From Ilumatobacteraceae bacterium (GTDB lineage: Bacteria; Actinomycetota; Acidimicrobiia; Acidimicrobiales; Ilumatobacteraceae), in contig JAWPMO010000001.1 of NCBI GenBank assembly GCA_033344875.1, positions 2,877,595 to 2,941,594 on the forward strand: 64,000 bases of DNA, written 5' to 3'. Each line of letters opens with the position of its first letter. Position 1 is the stretch's first letter. Both the position numbers and the translations under genes were made by a program. Shown piece by piece: positions 45,792 to 57,484 of this stretch. The notes under the pieces are model-generated. The model saw only the letters and a list, made by a program, of their open reading frames with translations, was not told the origin of the DNA and did no database searches.

Positions 45792-45805
45792 CCCCTCCCC
45801 CAGCC

Positions 45806-46590
45806 GTGTCGCGCTTCCAGGCGTCCCACACGCAAGACCGCGACACGCCCCAGCCCGACCGCCACCCCCAGCCAGCCGTGTCGCGCTTCTGCGCGCCCCA
45901 CCCGCAAGTCCGCGACACACCCACGACCGACCACCACCCCCAGCCAGCCGTGTCGCGCTTCTGGGCGCCCCACACGCAAGACCGCGACACAGCCCACGAC
46001 CGACCGCCGGCCTCACCCCACCCGACCATGTCGCTCTCTCGGGCGCCCCACACGCAAGACCGCGACACACCCCAGCCCGACCAACACCCCCCGCCGACCA
46101 TGTCGCGCTCTCGTGCATCCCACGCACAAGACCGCGACACAGCCCACGACCGACCGCCGGCCCCACCCCAGCCAGCCGTGTCGCGCTCCCGCGCGCCCCA
46201 CACGCAAGACCGCGACACGCCCCAGCCCGACCGCCACCCCCAGCCAGCCATGTCGCGCTTCTGCGCGCCCCACACACAAGACCGCGACACGCCCGCGACC
46301 GACCACCACCCCCAGCCGACCATGTCGCGCTCCTGCGCGCCCCACGCGCACCACCGCGACACAGCCCACGACCGACCGCCGGCCCCGCCCCAGCCGACCA
46401 CGTCGCGCTCCTGGGCGCCCCACACGCAAGACCGCGACACACCCCAGCCCGACCGTCCACCCCAGCCAGCCGTGTCGCGCTCCCGCGCGCCCCACACGCA
46501 AGACCGCGACACAGCCCACGGCCGACCGCCGGTCCCTCCTCAGCCGACCGTGTCGCGGTTCTGGGCCGACCGTCCTCGCGAGCGCGACGC
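45806..46590 (+). repeat. array E of GTGTCGCG-N25-CGCGACAC elements (11 units)
   Basis: Left arms start at 45806, 45878, 45950, 46028, 46100, 46178, 46250, 46322, 46400, 46472 and 46550. The spacing is either 72 or 78 bases. The 41-bp units mostly have the interior ending CCCACACGCAAGAC. Two kinds of spacer occur, a shorter CCCAGCCCGACC type and a longer CCCACGACCGACCGCCGG type. The array fills the gap between the epimerase and the HAD-GH18 gene (45792-46623). Confidence 0.92.
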
Positions 46591-46623
46591 CGTCCGTCCT
46601 CGCGAGCGCGACGGGGTGGTCGG

Positions 46624-48675: not shown

Positions 48676-49542
48676 ATGCGCCGCCGAGGGACGATCATGC
48701 TGATGGGAGCGACGCTCGCCCTCGCAGCGTGTGGATCGACCGAGGGCGACACGCCCACCGCCGCCGAACCGGCGACGATCACGGCGGGGACGACGGCGCC
48801 GTCGACCGCCACCGAACCGGGCGATGCAGGCGATCCCGGCGAGGCGACCCCCAACGCGACCGATCCCGACACCGACCCGGCCGGCACCGACCCGACCGAC
48901 ACCGACCCGGCCGCGACCGACCCCGGCACCGACCCGGGCGGCACCACGGGGAGCACCGGGGCTGCACCTGACACCGACTCGGGTGCCGCACCGGCGACCA
49001 GCGCACCCACCACTCCGCCGCCCACCGAGCCCCGGGCCGAGGATGGCTGTTCGCCCGACAACTCGCCGACCGAGACCGACGTGGCCGACGGACCCGTCCC
49101 GTCGATCGAGGTACGGGCCGCGTCGGCCGGCAACACGCTGCCCGATCTGGCGGTCCGCCGCGTCAACTGCGGCGGCGGATGGGTCAATCTCAAGAACGAG
49201 GTGCCCGCCGACCTGCCACTGCTCGTCTGGTTCTGGGCGCCGCATTGACCGGTGTGCCGGGCCGAGGCGCCCGACGTCGAGCAGTTCGCTCGAGCACACG
49301 CCGACGAGGTCCGAGTGATCGGGCTGGGCACGCAGGACAGTGGCGGCGAAGCCGCTGAGTTCGTCCGCGACTACCTCACGTATTCGTTCCCGATGTACTG
49401 GGACGAGACGTACGAGTCGTGGTCCGCATTCGGCATCACCGGTCAGCCGGCGGCCGTGATGCTGTCGGCCGACGGCGAGGTCGTCGCCGAGTGGCGGGGC
49501 GTGTTCCCCGAGGACGAGGTCCTCGCACTCGCACGAGGCTGA
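48676..49542 (+). CDS. thioredoxin-fold lipoprotein, predicted selenoprotein with UxxC (in-frame TGA at 49246-49248)
   Basis: Reading through the TGA gives a 288-residue lipoprotein. It has a signal peptide with lipobox LAAC (about residues 16-19), then an extended Asp/Thr/Pro-rich region of about 115 residues that could span the wall. A TlpA/MPT53-like thioredoxin domain follows. Around the TGA the sequence is LVWFWAPH-Sec-PVCRAEAPDVEQF, so Sec191 takes the place of the first Cys of the CxxC motif. Downstream come VIGLGTQDSGGEAAEF and the cis-Pro segment GITGQPAAVML. Known relatives drive disulfide exchange outside the membrane. The domain after the TGA is intact and similar to its neighbour, so this is not decay. 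It may regulate redox of the nearby pilins (inference). Confidence 0.9.
49256..49275 (+). promoter_or_regulatory. candidate SECIS hairpin of the first UxxC lipoprotein gene
   Basis: CGGGC (49258-49262) pairs with GCCCG (49269-49273) around the six-base loop CGAGGC; with one C-A mismatch the stem extends to 49256-49275. The loop begins 15 bases after the TGA and has G in its second position. The same loop and inner stem are found in the paralogue at 50974. Coding constraints also act here, so the evidence is moderate. Confidence 0.55.
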
Positions 49543-49600
49543 ACCGCACCAACGTGCGGCGGGCCGTGCCGCGGGTCAGCCGCCGAGGCCAGCTGCCAGA

Positions 49601-49771
49601 TCAGCCGCCGAGGTCGTCGAGCACGGGGATCGGCGGCGCGTCGTCGCCGTAGATGTACGACCGGAATCCGATGTAGCCGGCGACGCTGACGATCACGGCA
49701 AGCACGACGCTGATCGTGAACACGCGCGACCGGTTCGAGCGACCTCGTGGTGTTGGCGCCGGTCCTGACAT
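49601..49771 (-). CDS. small single-helix membrane protein of the prepilin cassette
   Basis: A 56-residue product: basic N-terminus (PTPRGRSNRSR), one helix VFTISVVLAVIVSVAGYIGFRSYIYG and a short acidic tail. The helix end (AGYIGFRSYIYGDD) resembles the helix ends of the proteins at 53111, 54616 and 55977 (such as AAGWFGYQAYQDQQ), so these may be a family of pilin-associated membrane proteins. It is the third gene behind the prepilin at 50003-50434. Function unknown. Confidence 0.65.
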   Translation of the reverse strand: MSGPAPTPRGRSNRSRVFTISVVLAVIVSVAGYIGFRSYIYGDDAPPIPVLDDLGG

Positions 49772-49775
49772 CGGC

Positions 49776-50009
49776 TCAGGCGGCGACGTCGGCGTACGGG
49801 GCCGGATCGAAGTGGATCGGTCCGGAGGCGACCAGACGGTGCCAGACCGGCGACACGGTGGTCTCGGGGGTGTGGGCGTCGGCGGCGGTGTCACGATCGG
49901 TGAGGACCAGTGCCCGCAGTGCCGGCTGCTCGAGCAGATCTCGGATCGCGAGCGGGTCGTCCCCGGCGGGAACCGGGGTGAGGCGGCGGCGCTTGAAGAA
50001 TTTCAGCAT
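49776..50009 (-). CDS. small protein of the prepilin cassette, unknown function
   Basis: A 77-residue product starting MLKFFKRRRLTPVPAGDDPLAIRDLLEQPALRALVLTD, with no membrane helix. Its ATG lies inside the end of the prepilin gene (7-base overlap), and a GAAGGGAAC ribosome-binding site precedes it, so it is translationally coupled to the prepilin. The next small gene starts four bases after its stop. No family was recognised; it might be a cytoplasmic partner of the pilin. Confidence 0.6.
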   Translation of the reverse strand: MLKFFKRRRLTPVPAGDDPLAIRDLLEQPALRALVLTDRDTAADAHTPETTVSPVWHRLVASGPIHFDPAPYADVAA

Positions 50010-50434
50010 GGTGAGTTCCCTTCGGGGGTGGCGGCGCCCGTGGCGTCCAGGTCGTGGTAGGTGCTGACGTCGCGGAGGAATCCGGCGGCGACGAGCGTCT
50101 GCTCGAAACGGTCGTGGTCGGTGCCGGTGGCGGGGAGGCTCGAGCTGCGGGTCTCGGCGAAGTAGCTCTCGGCCGCGACGGCGAGGCTGCGATGGTCGGT
50201 ACCGCAACTCGATGTCGAGGCTTCGGCCCGCATCCCGCTGATGGCGAACACGACGGCCAGGGCGAGGATGCCGAGGATCAGGATGACGAGCAGGATCTCG
50301 ACGAGCGTCCAACCGCCGTCGTGGTCGCGCTGCGTGGTCAGGCTCGCGGTCGTGGCCGTGGCGGTGTGGGCGGGGGCGAACTCGAGGGTGTCCTCGGTCG
50401 CTGGTTCGGTGGTGGGGTGCATCGTGTGGCTCAT
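50003..50434 (-). CDS. type IV prepilin-like protein 1 (GspG/PilA-like)
   Basis: The 143-residue product has a long hydrophilic leader (about 40 residues) ending GG, then the prepilin motif WTLVEILLVILILGILALAVVFAISG with the conserved Glu at +5. Cleavage is expected after the second Gly. The mature part contains exactly two Cys, one soon after the N-terminal helix (TSSCGTD) and one at the C-terminal end (GNSPC), which could form a disulfide. DHRSLAVAAESYFAE is the typical conserved segment of this group. It faces away from the second selenoprotein gene (divergent, 229 bases). Confidence 0.88.
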   Translation of the reverse strand: MSHTMHPTTEPATEDTLEFAPAHTATATTASLTTQRDHDGGWTLVEILLVILILGILALAVVFAISGMRAEASTSSCGTDHRSLAVAAESYFAETRSSSLPATGTDHDRFEQTLVAAGFLRDVSTYHDLDATGAATPEGNSPC

Positions 50435-50663
50435 CGCGGTGGTCGTGGGAACGGGGTGTTTCCCGTCATTCGAGTTTGCAGGAACTTGACGCACTTGTGG
50501 TTCAAGAGGCGCCGAAGGTTTCTGAACTCCGTCAACAGCCCGCACCGGTGGATTCACGAAGCGTGGCCGAACTTGACGAGTTCCAGACGAACGGCGAGGT
50601 CGGCGGCGTCGCGGGTGGTTTCCCGTCGGGAATACCGGTCGACGTCGACAGGGTTCCGGCGCC

Positions 50664-51269
50664 ATGCAGACACGAGCGGTGACCTCTCGGATCGTCGCGG
50701 CCGCGGTCGCCGGGGGCCTCACGCTCGCGGCATGCGGTGGCGGCAACGACCCGGCGTCGGTCGGTGCCGACGGGGCCGCCGTCACCGTGCCCGCTCCCGC
50801 CGACGGGCCGATCCCACAGCTTCCCGTCACCCCCGAGGCGGCCGCCGGCAGCCCACTCCCCGAGATCACCGTGCGTCGGATCAACGGCGAGGGTGGGTTC
50901 GTCCAGCTCAAGAACGCGTTGCCGTCCGATCGGCCGCTGCTCGTCTGGTTCTGGGCCCCGCATTGACCGTTCTGTCGGGCCGAGGCGCCCGACGTCGAGC
51001 AGTTCGCTCGAGAACACGGTGATGTGGTCGAGGTGATCGGGCTCGGCACGCAGGACAGCGCCGAGGAGGCGGCCGAGTTCGTGGAGCGCGGCGGCACCCA
51101 CAGCTTCCCGATGTACTGGGACGAGACGTTCGAGTCCTGGGAGGCGTTCGGTATCGCCAGTCAACCGGCCGCTGCGCTGCTCGCTCCCGACGGCGAGTTG
51201 CTCGCCGGGTGGTTGGGTGCGTTCGACCAGGACGAGGTGTTGCGGATCGCGGCCGAACTGGCCGGCTGA
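50664..51269 (+). CDS. thioredoxin-fold lipoprotein, predicted selenoprotein with UxxC, paralogue of 48676 (in-frame TGA at 50964-50966)
   Basis: Reading through the TGA gives a 201-residue lipoprotein. Its signal ends in lipobox LAAC, then a short linker (about 50 residues, much shorter than in the paralogue) and the same thioredoxin-like domain. The key region is LVWFWAPH-Sec-PFCRAEAPDVEQF, Sec101 replacing the first Cys of CxxC, followed by VIGLGTQDSAEEAAEF, FPMYWDETFESWEAFGI and the cis-Pro QPAAALL. Sec recoding at the same place as in the paralogue makes chance stop codons unlikely. Predicted to act outside the membrane. Gene order suggests that the pair arose by duplication around the prepilin cassette. 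Confidence 0.9.
50974..50993 (+). promoter_or_regulatory. candidate SECIS hairpin of the second UxxC lipoprotein gene
   Basis: GTCGGGC (50974-50980) pairs perfectly with GCCCGAC (50987-50993) around the loop CGAGGC. The stem starts 7 bases and the loop 15 bases after the TGA. The longer perfect stem makes it the better of the two paralogous candidates. Confidence 0.6.
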
Positions 51270-53110: not shown

Positions 53111-54532
53111 TCAGGGTGCGTCGACCCATGTTCCTTCCCCGAACTCCAGGCGCGCTGATTCGTCCGAGTAACCGCCCATCACATAGACGACCCGGAGGTC
53201 TTCCTGCGGCGAGATCACCGACGCCATCTCGACGATTCCTTGTTCGGTTATTCCGAAGACGATCGCCGTCTCGTTGTCGAACGGTTCGAACTCGTACTCG
53301 CTCAGGTCCTCGACCGTCCGCTGCTGCAGGGGACCGGCGTCCATGGCCTCGGCGAGCTGGACCTGTTCGGTCCCCGGCTCGATCAGATCGATGTGGGCAC
53401 CGGATGCGGTGGCCCACAAACTTCTCCATTCCAGATACGAATCGGGATCAGCCGCTCGGAACCCAGCGACGTCGAGGAAGTAGCTGTAGTGCGTGACCGG
53501 AGTGCCGTCGACGCCGATCTCACCACTCGCACTCTCCACGAGGAGCGTCGCGAACGGGCGTGCGGTACGTGGGAAGACATCGAACTCACCGAGCATCCCG
53601 GCGAGCGGCGTGTCCGGCCCGGGCTCGACACTGAGCGGGCTGCGTCGGACCCGCCGTGACACACCGTCGGGTCCGATCGAGTACCGCCACGCTCCGTCGA
53701 ACGAGACGAGGCTGGTGTCTCCGGACGCCGAGTCGTGGGCCACGCCGTAGTAGCTGTCGCGCTCGGTGTCGTAGGTGACGTCGAAGTCACGGAACGTCGC
53801 ACCGGTGGCCGCTCCGTCGTACTGCCTGACGTAGTAGGTGATCGTCCGGTAGTCAGGCCGCCGAGCGACTCGAGGCGGCGGCAGCGGCTCAGGCGAGAAG
53901 GGTCCCTCGATCGTCTTCGGCGGAAGCACCTGGGTCAGGTCTCGTGCGTCGTCGATCGCGCCGAGCAGGCCGCCGGCGCTGGATCGTGCGGTGTTGTTCA
54001 GATCGCCCATCGCTTCGACGATCTCTTGTTGTTCGCCGAGCGGGGTGAGCGCCGCGATCGCCGATTCGGCGCCCGAGTCCTCGTCGGCGGCCTCCGCAGC
54101 TGCGGCGGCACGTTCGGCGGCGTCACGATCCTGCTGGTCCTGGTAGGCCTGGTAGCCGAACCAGCCGGCGGCGGCGAGGCCGCCGACGAGCACGACGGCG
54201 AGGGCACGGCCGAACAGCAGGTTGAGACGACGCTTCCGGCGGGCCTTCGCCCGGAGTCGTTGGGCGGCCTCACGATTGGCTTCGCTGCCGGTGGGCAGCG
54301 CGCCGTAGGCGGGATTGGTCGCGTAGTGCTTCTGCGAGTCGACCATCGCCTTGGCGTCGAAGGGCGCCGGTTCGACCGGTGGCGGTTCGACGGGTGGGGC
54401 CGCGGGCACGAACGGCGCGTCCGAGGCGGGGGGTGTGGTCGGCTGCGCTGGACCCGTGCTGACGGGCTGCGCCGCGGGGAGGTATGGCGCCTCGTCGTGG
54501 TCGGCACCATCCCGTTCGGTTGGTGTGGTCAT
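53111..54532 (-). CDS. single-helix membrane protein, paralogue of 54616-55914, unknown function
   Basis: The 473-residue product has a Pro/Ala-rich cytoplasmic N-terminus, the segment FDAKAMVDSQKHYATNPAYGALPTGSEANREAAQRLRAKARRKRR, one membrane helix ALAVVLVGGLAAAGWFGYQAYQ (about residues 109-130), a short Ala/Glu-rich coil and a large exported domain of alternating strands with many Tyr and Asp. No known domain was recognised. It shares order and several motifs with the next gene (54616-55914). The nearby prepilin genes suggest a part in a pilus or secretion system. Confidence 0.7.
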   Translation of the reverse strand: MTTPTERDGADHDEAPYLPAAQPVSTGPAQPTTPPASDAPFVPAAPPVEPPPVEPAPFDAKAMVDSQKHYATNPAYGALPTGSEANREAAQRLRAKARRKRRLNLLFGRALAVVLVGGLAAAGWFGYQAYQDQQDRDAAERAAAAAEAADEDSGAESAIAALTPLGEQQEIVEAMGDLNNTARSSAGGLLGAIDDARDLTQVLPPKTIEGPFSPEPLPPPRVARRPDYRTITYYVRQYDGAATGATFRDFDVTYDTERDSYYGVAHDSASGDTSLVSFDGAWRYSIGPDGVSRRVRRSPLSVEPGPDTPLAGMLGEFDVFPRTARPFATLLVESASGEIGVDGTPVTHYSYFLDVAGFRAADPDSYLEWRSLWATASGAHIDLIEPGTEQVQLAEAMDAGPLQQRTVEDLSEYEFEPFDNETAIVFGITEQGIVEMASVISPQEDLRVVYVMGGYSDESARLEFGEGTWVDAP

Positions 54533-54615
54533 TGCACGACCAGTCTCTCACGCGCGCCGGCGGGCCGACAGAGGCAGCCGGCGCGTGGGGATCGTCCACG
54601 GCGCGGTTGGCGTCG

Positions 54616-55914
54616 TCAGGGAGCCGGCGACCAGACCCGTTCGCCGAGGTCGGCGATGGCCGGCATGTCGCCGAAGTCGGTGAGGTAGTACTCGATCCGG
54701 AAGTCGGCGGTGGTGTCGATGATCGTCACGACCTGGACGTGTCCTGCCGGCGCGATCATGTACGACAGTCCGGCGCCGGGCGCGACGCGTTCGAGCGCGT
54801 CGCCGACCGGTTGCGGTGGCGGCGCCACGGGAACCGATGCGCGATCGAACCCGTCGGTGCTGATCTCTCGCGTGGCGAGGTCGACGAGTGAGTTGTCGTT
54901 CGCGGGCCGAGAGTTCCACCTGCTCACCCACACGAAGTACGAGCCCGGGTCCGCTGCCCGCCACTGCTCGGTGTCGATGGAGTACGTGTAGGCGTCACCG
55001 AACCCGGACCCGGGCGTGCTGTCTTCCAGGACGGCGAACGGCCGGGCGGGTTCGGGGAGGACGTCGCTCTCTCGGAACACGTTGGCGAGGGCGACGTCCG
55101 GGGCGACGTCGAGGCTCGCCACGTTGCGCCGCACTCGTTCGACCACGCCGTCGGTTCCGACCGAGTAGCGGTAGCCGGCGTCGGCGCCGACGATCGTGAC
55201 CTCGCCGCCCTGTCGGACTTCTCCGGCATAGGTGTCGGCGACCCGGTCGTATCGGTAGTAGTACTCGGCCATCGGCGAGCCCGCTGCGGCTGCCTCCCAT
55301 CGGCGGTAGAGGAACTCCACGGAACGGGCCGCGAACGAGTCGGCCAGGAGGTCGGCGGACGCGGCGTCGCCCGACGGTTCGTCGTTCGACTGGACGGAGA
55401 CCTCGGGTGGCAGGGTGACGGGCGGCGACAGCGAGGCGACCTCGTCGGCGCTCCCGTCGCCGGCGGGCGAGGGTTCGGCGTCGAGTTGCTGGTCGTCTTG
55501 ATACGCCCGGTACCCGAACCAGCCGGCGGCTCCGAGGCCTCCGATCACGGTGAGGACGACGACCCGACTCAGCACCCGATTCCGGCGTCGGCGTCGGCGG
55601 GCCTCGGCGCGCAGCTGCTGGGCGGCGGCGCGGCTGGCCCCGGTGGCGGCGGGGAGCGGGCCGTAGGCGGGCTTCGGTCGATAGCCCTTCTGCGCTTCGA
55701 CCATCGCTTTCGCGTCGAACGTCGTCTCCGGGTCGGGGTCGCGCGACTCAGCACCCGGGACGTACAGGGCGTCGCGGATCTCTGGCCCCTTCGGCTCCCT
55801 CGGCTCGGCGGGTCCGGTCGAGCCGGAACGTACGGTCGGGAGGTAGGGCGTGTCGGTCGGGAGGTAAGGCGTGTCGGATCGACTGGCGCCGTCCCCCTCG
55901 GCGGGTTCTGTCAT
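54616..55914 (-). CDS. single-helix membrane protein, paralogue of 53111-54532, unknown function
   Basis: The 432-residue product has the same plan as its downstream neighbour: Pro-rich N-terminus with repeated DTPYLPT, FDAKAMVEAQKGYRPKPAYGPLPAATGASRAAAQQLRAEARRRRR, the helix VVLTVIGGLGAAGWFGYRAYQ, then an exported domain of about 280 residues containing VSRWNSRPANDNSLVDLA and a C-terminal TADFRIEYYLTDFGDMPAIADLGERVWSPAP. Two tandem paralogues next to prepilins suggest pilus-associated or minor-pilin-like accessory proteins. No catalytic motif is seen. Confidence 0.7.
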   Translation of the reverse strand: MTEPAEGDGASRSDTPYLPTDTPYLPTVRSGSTGPAEPREPKGPEIRDALYVPGAESRDPDPETTFDAKAMVEAQKGYRPKPAYGPLPAATGASRAAAQQLRAEARRRRRRNRVLSRVVVLTVIGGLGAAGWFGYRAYQDDQQLDAEPSPAGDGSADEVASLSPPVTLPPEVSVQSNDEPSGDAASADLLADSFAARSVEFLYRRWEAAAAGSPMAEYYYRYDRVADTYAGEVRQGGEVTIVGADAGYRYSVGTDGVVERVRRNVASLDVAPDVALANVFRESDVLPEPARPFAVLEDSTPGSGFGDAYTYSIDTEQWRAADPGSYFVWVSRWNSRPANDNSLVDLATREISTDGFDRASVPVAPPPQPVGDALERVAPGAGLSYMIAPAGHVQVVTIIDTTADFRIEYYLTDFGDMPAIADLGERVWSPAP

Positions 55915-56437: not shown

Positions 56438-56785
56438 TCAGCAGGGCGTCACGCCGATCAGGTATCCCTCGGCCGCGACGTCCCAGTATTGCGACAGGCT
56501 ACGGCTCAGCCCGGCGTCGACCAGCGTCTGCTCGTACCGAGTCGCTCCCGACCCGGTGGCCGGAATGGTGGAGCTGCCTTCCTGCGCGAAGTACGCCTCG
56601 ACGGCGGTCGCGAGCGTGCGGGCATCTTGTGCGCAGGCGTTGTCCTGGCCGCGATCGGTGATGCCGCGAACGGAGAACACGACCACCGTCCCCAGAATGC
56701 CGAGGATGACGATCACGATCAGCAACTCGATCAGCGAAAAGCCATCGGCCTCGTCGGTTGCTCGGCGCTCCAATGCAAAGTTCAC
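56438..56785 (-). CDS. type IV prepilin-like protein 2
   Basis: The product (115 residues from the GTG at 56785; a TTG at 56794 is an alternative) has a leader ending in Gly (ATDEADG), the cleavage motif FSLIELLIVIVILGILGTVVVFSVRG with Glu at +5, and a C-terminal domain with two Cys (DNACAQD and GVTPC). TLATAVEAYFAQ matches the conserved segment of prepilin 1. No ribosome-binding site is clear for either start. It is one of two close prepilins, 133 bases from the third. Confidence 0.88.
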   Translation of the reverse strand: MNFALERRATDEADGFSLIELLIVIVILGILGTVVVFSVRGITDRGQDNACAQDARTLATAVEAYFAQEGSSTIPATGSGATRYEQTLVDAGLSRSLSQYWDVAAEGYLIGVTPC

Positions 56786-56917
56786 GTGAATCAACTTAAC
56801 ACAGAGGTGACTGACGGGGGCTCAAGGTCTCGGCAAGAACGGAGGGCCCACGACGTGGCGCAGTGCCCTGCGCGAGGGCCGATGAATCGGCCACTTCTCG
56901 GCCGCGACCGGTCATCG

Positions 56918-57283
56918 TCAGACGGACGTGCAGCGCGACGAAACCGACACGAGCACGGCTCCATCGGAGTTCATGTCGTACAGATTCGAGGTTTCCCGGA
57001 GCAGGCCGTCATTGGCGAGGGTGCGCTCCACGGCCTCGGCGTCGACGCCGTCGGGCGGGATCGAGTCGCCGCCGTGCTTGGCGAAGTAGGCCTCCGCTGC
57101 ATTCGAGAGCGTCCGGACGTCTGCATCGCAGGTGGCCTGTTCGCCACGATCGGTGATGCCCTGGACGCTCATGATGACCACCGTCGCAAGGATGCCGAGG
57201 ACGACGATGACGATCAAGAGTTCGATCAACGTGAAGCCCTTGTCACCGCTGCTCCCGCTCGACGTGATCTCTCGCTCGCTCAT
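56918..57283 (-). CDS. type IV prepilin-like protein 3
   Basis: The 121-residue product (ATG at 57283, MSEREIT) has a leader ending in KG and the motif FTLIELLIVIVVLGILATVVIMSVQG. Its mature part again has exactly two Cys, in QATCDAD and near the C-terminus (SSRCTSV), and TLSNAAEAYFAKHG aligns with the other two. Three prepilins of one subtype in 7 kb suggest a pilus or pseudopilus with related minor subunits; the ATPase, prepilin peptidase and inner-membrane parts are not in this window. Confidence 0.9.
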   Translation of the reverse strand: MSEREITSSGSSGDKGFTLIELLIVIVVLGILATVVIMSVQGITDRGEQATCDADVRTLSNAAEAYFAKHGGDSIPPDGVDAEAVERTLANDGLLRETSNLYDMNSDGAVLVSVSSRCTSV

Positions 57284-57484
57284 GCTGTTGCTATCGGCAT
57301 GCGCTTGGCGCGATTGAGACAAACTTTGCTCAAGGCACACCAGACTCAACCGTGACTGGTTGTCAAGCTGGCATCAAGATCGTCATCAGCCGTGCCGATG
57401 ACCAACCACCGACCAACCACGAGGTCGACCGCTCGTCGTTCGACCGACGGCTACTCTGATCATCCGCATCGAAAGCAGCAATCC

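Follow-up and report, generated by a model that had tools for sequence, protein, structure and literature searches.

Bacterial selenoproteins with selenocysteine (Sec, U) at the first position of a UxxC motif have been listed for the TlpA, redoxin, and thioredoxin-like (Trx-like) 1 groups (PMC13188914, Table 1; PMC2398784, Table 2; these and the other papers cited here were available in part, and what is said of them refers to those parts). The kinds listed are thiol-disulfide isomerase-like proteins (cd02966), redoxins (PF08534), peroxiredoxin-like (Prx-like) thiol:disulfide oxidoreductases (PF00578), and Trx-like 1 proteins (COG0526). For a related thioredoxin-like selenoprotein, PMC13188914 cites Haft and Tolstoy (2025). 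Here, two genes very probably encoding lipoproteins of this type are described in a member of the Ilumatobacteraceae, order Acidimicrobiales (GenBank assembly GCA_033344875.1). Both genes are located in the window, i.e., the analyzed 64,000-nucleotide stretch of contig JAWPMO010000001.1 (positions 2,877,595 to 2,941,594, forward strand), and all coordinates below are window positions unless a contig is named. The encoded proteins share with the listed kinds the predicted Sec at the first position of UxxC, and PF08534 and PF00578 are also their best Pfam matches. The features of their own are the lipoprotein form, the wide distribution in one actinobacterial order, the paired copies, and, in one family, a pilin neighbor.

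In the available main text of PMC13188914, none of the words Acidimicrob, Actinomycetota, Actinobacteri, lipoprotein, or periplasm is used, and no description of this selenoprotein family was found in the available parts of PMC9312934, PMC5029168, PMC1088965, and PMC5330540. The literature search yielded nothing on actinobacterial UxxC thioredoxin-like selenoproteins and nothing relevant on selenoprotein lipoprotein thioredoxins together with pilins; a prior report may exist. As far as these searches reach, the proteins appear to form a new family inside a known UxxC kind, not a new category. Within the same reach, what is added is the family itself, its spread in the order, the lipoprotein anchoring, and the pilin neighbors. 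The original prediction, which was made from the nucleotide sequence alone, had considered UxxC thioredoxin-like lipoproteins flanking a prepilin cassette to be an undescribed arrangement. Because UxxC selenoproteins of the TlpA and redoxin groups were already described, the novelty is lower than was claimed; the flanking pair itself is real and recurs in two other genomes of the genus (see below).

The first gene (48676..49542, plus strand, 288 residues plus stop) encodes a lipoprotein with a low-complexity linker and a C-terminal thioredoxin/redoxin domain, and the second (50664..51269, plus strand, 201 residues plus stop) a lipoprotein with the thioredoxin/redoxin domain. Each gene has a single internal TGA, located at 49246..49248 (residue 191) and 50964..50966 (residue 101), respectively, both on the plus strand. 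With this codon translated as U, the motifs are WFWAPH-U-PVC-RAEAPDVEQF and WFWAPH-U-PFC-RAEAPDVEQF, so that the TGA occupies the first position of the thioredoxin C/UxxC motif in both proteins. Both genes end with another TGA, 98 codons past the internal one in the first gene and 101 codons in the second. Lipoboxes are present in both proteins (LALAACG and LTLAACG), and the lipobox pattern, a pattern match without a signal-peptide predictor, was found in 51 of 54 rows with Sec and Cys forms pooled. Thus, the single in-frame TGA at the same site of each gene and the lipoprotein signals stand as they were first noticed. The pair is not the whole set of paralogues in this genome: a third UxxC lipoprotein (WFWAPW-U-STC-NREAPSVEE) is encoded outside the window, at G000:C1:1267450-1267773 (L022, L163), and no pilin-pattern match was found across the surrounding 9 kb.

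The complete machinery for Sec incorporation was found in the genome, which is a single contig of 4,968,626 bases with a completeness of 99.65%. One tRNA-Sec was detected (66.6 bits against the Rfam gathering score of 47) and was also called by ARAGORN as tRNA-SeC with anticodon tca. The neighboring genes selB (275.9 bits) and selA (396.1 bits) as well as selD (367.2 bits) all exceed their family cut-offs; machinery matches below cut-off were disregarded, since these are common in control genomes too. The selD gene itself has one internal TGA, in the context GAG-U-GCKLA as read from its translation. Inside the window, neither Rfam at gathering thresholds nor ARAGORN reported anything, and the Sec machinery is located elsewhere in the genome. 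A search of the genome for selA, selB, selD, and tRNA-Sec had been proposed as the check on the Sec assignment, and all four are present.

The internal TGA is conserved. All 10 analyzed genomes of the genus match the domain at E <= 0.001, and close relatives were found in seven of them (G000, G002, G003, G005, G006, G007, and G009); completeness is 74, 79, and 83% in the remaining three. In the 10 genus rows that span the codon with at least 56% identity, it is TGA in every case, which exceeds what chance would give. Of the 397 genomes of the order, 165 have a match at E <= 1e-12. Among the matches listed, 94 genomes have a TGA row and 13 have stop-free rows; the remaining 58 matched genomes, with rows only outside the listing, were left out of these counts, and G219, in which the stop-free row misses the codon, was entered under its TGA row. 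The codon is TGC or TGT in all 13 stop-free genomes, which provides the Cys-form homologues that the Sec assignment had led one to expect. The selA gene was found in 237 of the 397 genomes of the order, and, among the matches listed, in 91 of the 94 TGA-form genomes versus 2 of the 13 Cys-form genomes (Fisher p 8.6e-11, a value that overstates the contrast because the genomes are related and not independent; both groups also mix subfamilies). A quick tree was made of 76 domains (69 Sec and 7 Cys); many of its forks are unresolved, and one row (L033) comes from a frame-shifted gene. On this tree, the Sec/Cys label requires 2 changes, compared with a mean of 6.9 after shuffling. The placement of four Cys forms among Sec forms fits a Sec-to-Cys loss as far as the resolved forks allow. 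Beyond the order, a search of 396 genomes of the phylum found Sec-form matches, of which one is close (G502, 50% identity, 3.7e-40) and the rest are weaker. The phage search gave weak matches only, in two unannotated records.

A hairpin resembling the bacterial Sec insertion sequence (bSECIS) was found downstream of both internal TGA codons, at 49277..49293 for the first gene and at 50995..51011 for the second, both on the plus strand. Its sequence, UCGAGC-AGUUC-GCUCGA, is identical in the two genes. The loop has 5 nt (AGUUC) with G second and U third, the stem has 6 bp, the spacing from the UGA is 34 nt, and the energy is -8.0 kcal/mol. These values lie within all the bSECIS limits given in Fig. 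2A of PMC13188914, namely, a loop of 3-9 nt, a stem of 4-16 bp, G among the first two loop positions, a distance of 16-37 nt from the UGA, and a minimum free energy <= -7.5. The same hairpin or its variants were found at columns 32-48 in the 41 WFWAPH-group rows. Over 39 distinct rows, 96.6% of 234 cells are paired and three pairs are changed on both sides, while slid control structures pair in 15-47%. None of 500 shuffles matched the hairpin in paired cells, in both-side-changed pairs and cells, or in covariation score, and the same helix was recovered by unaided RNAalifold. In one row (L068), several stem positions are altered jointly and the encoded amino acids are altered as well. The hairpin is not kept in the five Cys rows. 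Codon-shuffle z-scores for the region from the UGA to +48 average -2.11 in the 41 Sec rows versus -0.62 in the 5 Cys rows, with -0.14 to -0.58 in the flanking windows of the Sec rows. A three-helix junction was also predicted for the window genes. Its outer stem pairs in only 57.5% and its first hairpin in only 63.6% of cells in fixed register, and the claim is therefore limited to the columns 32-48 hairpin. A different hairpin, with a GGUC loop 26 nt past the UGA, is found in the third-paralogue group (8 rows), with 98.2% of 56 cells paired; its both-side-changed pairs were matched by 52 of 500 shuffles. Since the codon-shuffle energy test was negative for these 8 rows (mean z -0.18), the GGUC hairpin rests on pair counts.

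Several observations weigh against Sec insertion. No selA was found in three TGA-form genomes, G178, G307, and G384 (83, 93, and 73% complete), and two Cys-form genomes, G333 and G027, carry selA. Both of the latter belong to the five Cys-form genomes in which the motif is WFWAPHC (G333, G027, G309, G317, and G070; in the other 8 of the 13, the motif of the row read is APF or APW), so that the selA contrast is weaker within the subfamily. Further pair types in the hairpin were matched by 192 of 500 shuffles, i.e., they are not above shuffles. Nevertheless, the machinery, the conserved TGA, the Cys-form homologues, and the hairpin agree with Sec in place of the first Cys of CxxC, as had been proposed, and insertion of Sec into an exported thioredoxin-fold protein is considered highly probable for both window genes. 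SelB and tRNA-Sec would decode the internal UGA as directed by the AGUUC-loop hairpin 34 nt downstream, and the UGA at the end of each gene would act as the stop.

In domain sequence and fold, the window proteins are similar to Mycobacterium tuberculosis DsbF and MPT53/DsbE. Both proteins match Redoxin (PF08534) at 2e-12 and AhpC-TSA (PF00578) at 9.8e-11 and 6.4e-12, respectively, and their best solved relatives by phmmer are DsbF (3ios, 4.7e-16) and MPT53 (1lu4, 5.3e-11). The AlphaFold2 model of the second protein (P0002), built with Cys for Sec, has a mean predicted local distance difference test score of 81.9, with values above 90 over most of the domain. A Foldseek search of this model against PDB ranked 3ios and 1lu4 first and second, followed by ResA. 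The thioredoxin/redoxin fold, the N-terminal active-site motif, and the Pro of the QP motif are all present according to Pfam, the model, and the conserved columns. Where DsbF (WFWAPWCPTC) and MPT53 (WFWTPWCPFC) have Cys at the first position of the active site, the window proteins have the predicted Sec; the same replacement distinguishes them from the extracytoplasmic thioredoxins TlpA, ResA, StoA, and CcmG, with which they share the fold. Etrx2 (2yp6), an exposed lipoprotein thioredoxin, is likewise a lipoprotein according to its PDB title. Both window proteins are thus assigned by homology to DsbF/MPT53/TlpA-type membrane-anchored extracytoplasmic thioredoxin-fold oxidoreductases.

No NCBIfam model, including those for ResA, StoA, and DsbE, reaches its cut-off for the window proteins P0001 and P0002. 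Matches to the ResA and DsbE models at E <= 0.1 were obtained for every one of the 32 aligned members; for ResA, P0002 scores 37.3 bits against a curated cut-off of 170. The SelL-related model (NF040769) weakly matches 22 of the 32 members (P0002, 26.6 bits; cut-off, 120). The model for ResA-like WAxxUGC proteins (NF041054) weakly matches 15 of the 32, P0002 not among them, and its UGC motif is unlike UxxC. The model for the HUIPC thioredoxin-like selenoprotein (NF047660) is absent from the 17 families matched by P0002, and for the 32 members it is absent from the 25 of 30 families listed. Beside the SelL-related and WAxxUGC proteins, a lipoprotein relative with a UxxU motif was noted in one draft genome (L052, G007:C184:41606-41929). 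Its motif, WFWAPW-U-PF-U-RREAP, contains two TGA codons, and a hairpin, CCAC-GGUC-GUGG, is located 3' of it.

Catalysis as an exported selenol/thiol oxidoreductase would follow from the fold. As suggested by the fold and motif, the Sec selenolate may attack an exported substrate at a disulfide or an oxidised thiol, and the UxxC Cys may then resolve the intermediate. The oxidised selenenylsulfide could most likely be re-reduced via a CcdA/DsbD-type membrane protein, for which two matches were found in the genome (1.6e-16), a connection to which we attach little weight. The opposite direction, in which Sec is inserted and the proteins act as oxidants similarly to DsbF and MPT53, recharged by VKOR, is the alternative that survives best and has an appreciable, although lesser, chance of being correct. 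The nearest solved relatives are precisely these two proteins, which are usually described as oxidants, and the genome has four VKOR matches (best, 6.3e-43); both points make the support for the reductive direction weak. With CcdA/DsbD-type and VKOR matches both present, reducing and oxidising routes both exist. A selenenylsulfide is, in general, more reducing than a disulfide, which disfavors an oxidant role. On balance, the reductive direction is somewhat favored.

Explanations without Sec fare much worse. If the internal TGAs were real stops, the genes would be pseudogenes, or the second half would be made separately from the GTG start just past the first TGA, where an open reading frame (ORF) of 96 codons indeed begins; some relatives are also broken in draft genomes (G003, the second copy of G006, and G219). 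Yet dozens of relatives hold TGA at the same codon with open flanking frames, the RNA hairpin is maintained with compensatory changes, Cys at the codon occurs mainly in genomes without selA, and the post-Sec fragment would be missing both the active-site residue and the initial strands of the fold, which makes real stops very improbable. Equally improbable is reading of TGA as another amino acid or general readthrough, which is favored by the open frame and nothing further and is opposed by the termination of both genes at TGA, by the replacement of a catalytic position that is Cys in stop-free relatives, and by the presence of tRNA-Sec.

According to PMC13188914, aerobic bacteria seldom retain selenoproteins, Sec being too reactive in oxygen, and Ilumatobacter coccineum is described as an aerobic bacterium (PMC3910706). 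The wide retention of putative exported Sec lipoproteins in an order that includes Ilumatobacter contrasts with this rarity. Gene finders in which TGA counts as a stop would cut each of these genes in two. Since Sec and Cys forms appear to occur in close relatives, the benefit of an extracytoplasmic Sec is directly testable.

A gene located between the two selenoprotein genes (50003..50422, minus strand) encodes a prepilin-type protein with one Cys at mature position 37 and another at 103. The same island contains two more prepilin-type genes (56438..57349, minus strand), which presumably belong to the same system and whose products each have a Cys at 37 and another at or close to the C-terminus. 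Two copies flanking a pilin gene were found in the window genome, in G007, and in G006, where the second copy is broken in the draft. A pilin-type ORF is located within 2.7 kb of the selenoprotein gene at 10 of 17 Ilumatobacteraceae loci (the window, L084, L086, L096, L097, L098, L112, L114, L117, and L137). Loci were counted once each (L104 and L105 repeat L097 and L098), some share a genome, some are cut by contig ends, and in L137 the gene is broken in the draft. The orientation of the pilin gene relative to the selenoprotein gene varies, being convergent in L086 and the same in L112, L114, and L117. At L086 (G142), two prepilin-type ORFs adjoin a Sec-thioredoxin gene. For I. coccineum, the available part of the genome paper (PMC3910706) reports the absence of any gene required for pili. 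The window genome has only 9 pilin-type matches over cut-off, at 7 sites, so the adjacency is unlikely to be due to chance, although the loci are non-independent through shared descent. Each of the 12 linked pilins, like the 2 others in the window, carries one Cys at mature position 37 and another no more than 5 residues from the C-terminus; the pair is absent from four other pilin-type ORFs of the genome (L159, L161, and L162), and L160 has no pilin-pattern match.

In Ilumatobacteraceae, the neighboring prepilin-type protein with the conserved Cys pair would be the likeliest local client, which is speculative. That the Sec-thioredoxin lipoproteins of this family are dedicated redox partners of a two-Cys pseudopilin is a tentative proposal and rather unlikely. 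It is similarly doubtful that, in such a partnership, a disulfide from Cys37 to the C-terminal Cys is made, broken, or repaired, thereby controlling surface filament assembly in an aerobe; if true, this would be a selenium-dependent step in pilus or type II secretion system biogenesis. No nearby pilin was found at 7 of the 17 Ilumatobacteraceae loci (L085, L099, L107, L108, L109, L110, and L113). The L158 pilin, 22 kb away, has the same Cys pair, and the pair is therefore not strictly tied to adjacency. Outside the family, the strict pattern found a pilin at none of 13 loci, and none of 9 further records had one nearby (L121 repeats L087). Since the pilin-free loci comprise those 7 and all examined loci of other families, pilins cannot serve as a general substrate. 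With a looser pilin pattern, the only hit outside the family was in L095, about 7 kb away, and it is a non-hydrophobic chance match.

Tandem pairs of Sec-thioredoxin genes were also found in other families of the order (L073, L079, L062, L122, L077, and L078), with no pilin-pattern match at these loci. Amid the pilin genes of the window, at 53111-55914 on the minus strand, are located two seemingly paralogous ORFs (473 and 432 aa) with a hydrophobic stretch and, by eye, a shared FDAKAMV-x-x-QK motif. Finally, a diverged tandem-repeat array is located at 45800-46613, with called periods of 24, 72, 150, 222, and 372, and is rich in GCGCCCCACACGCAAGACCGCGACAC units.

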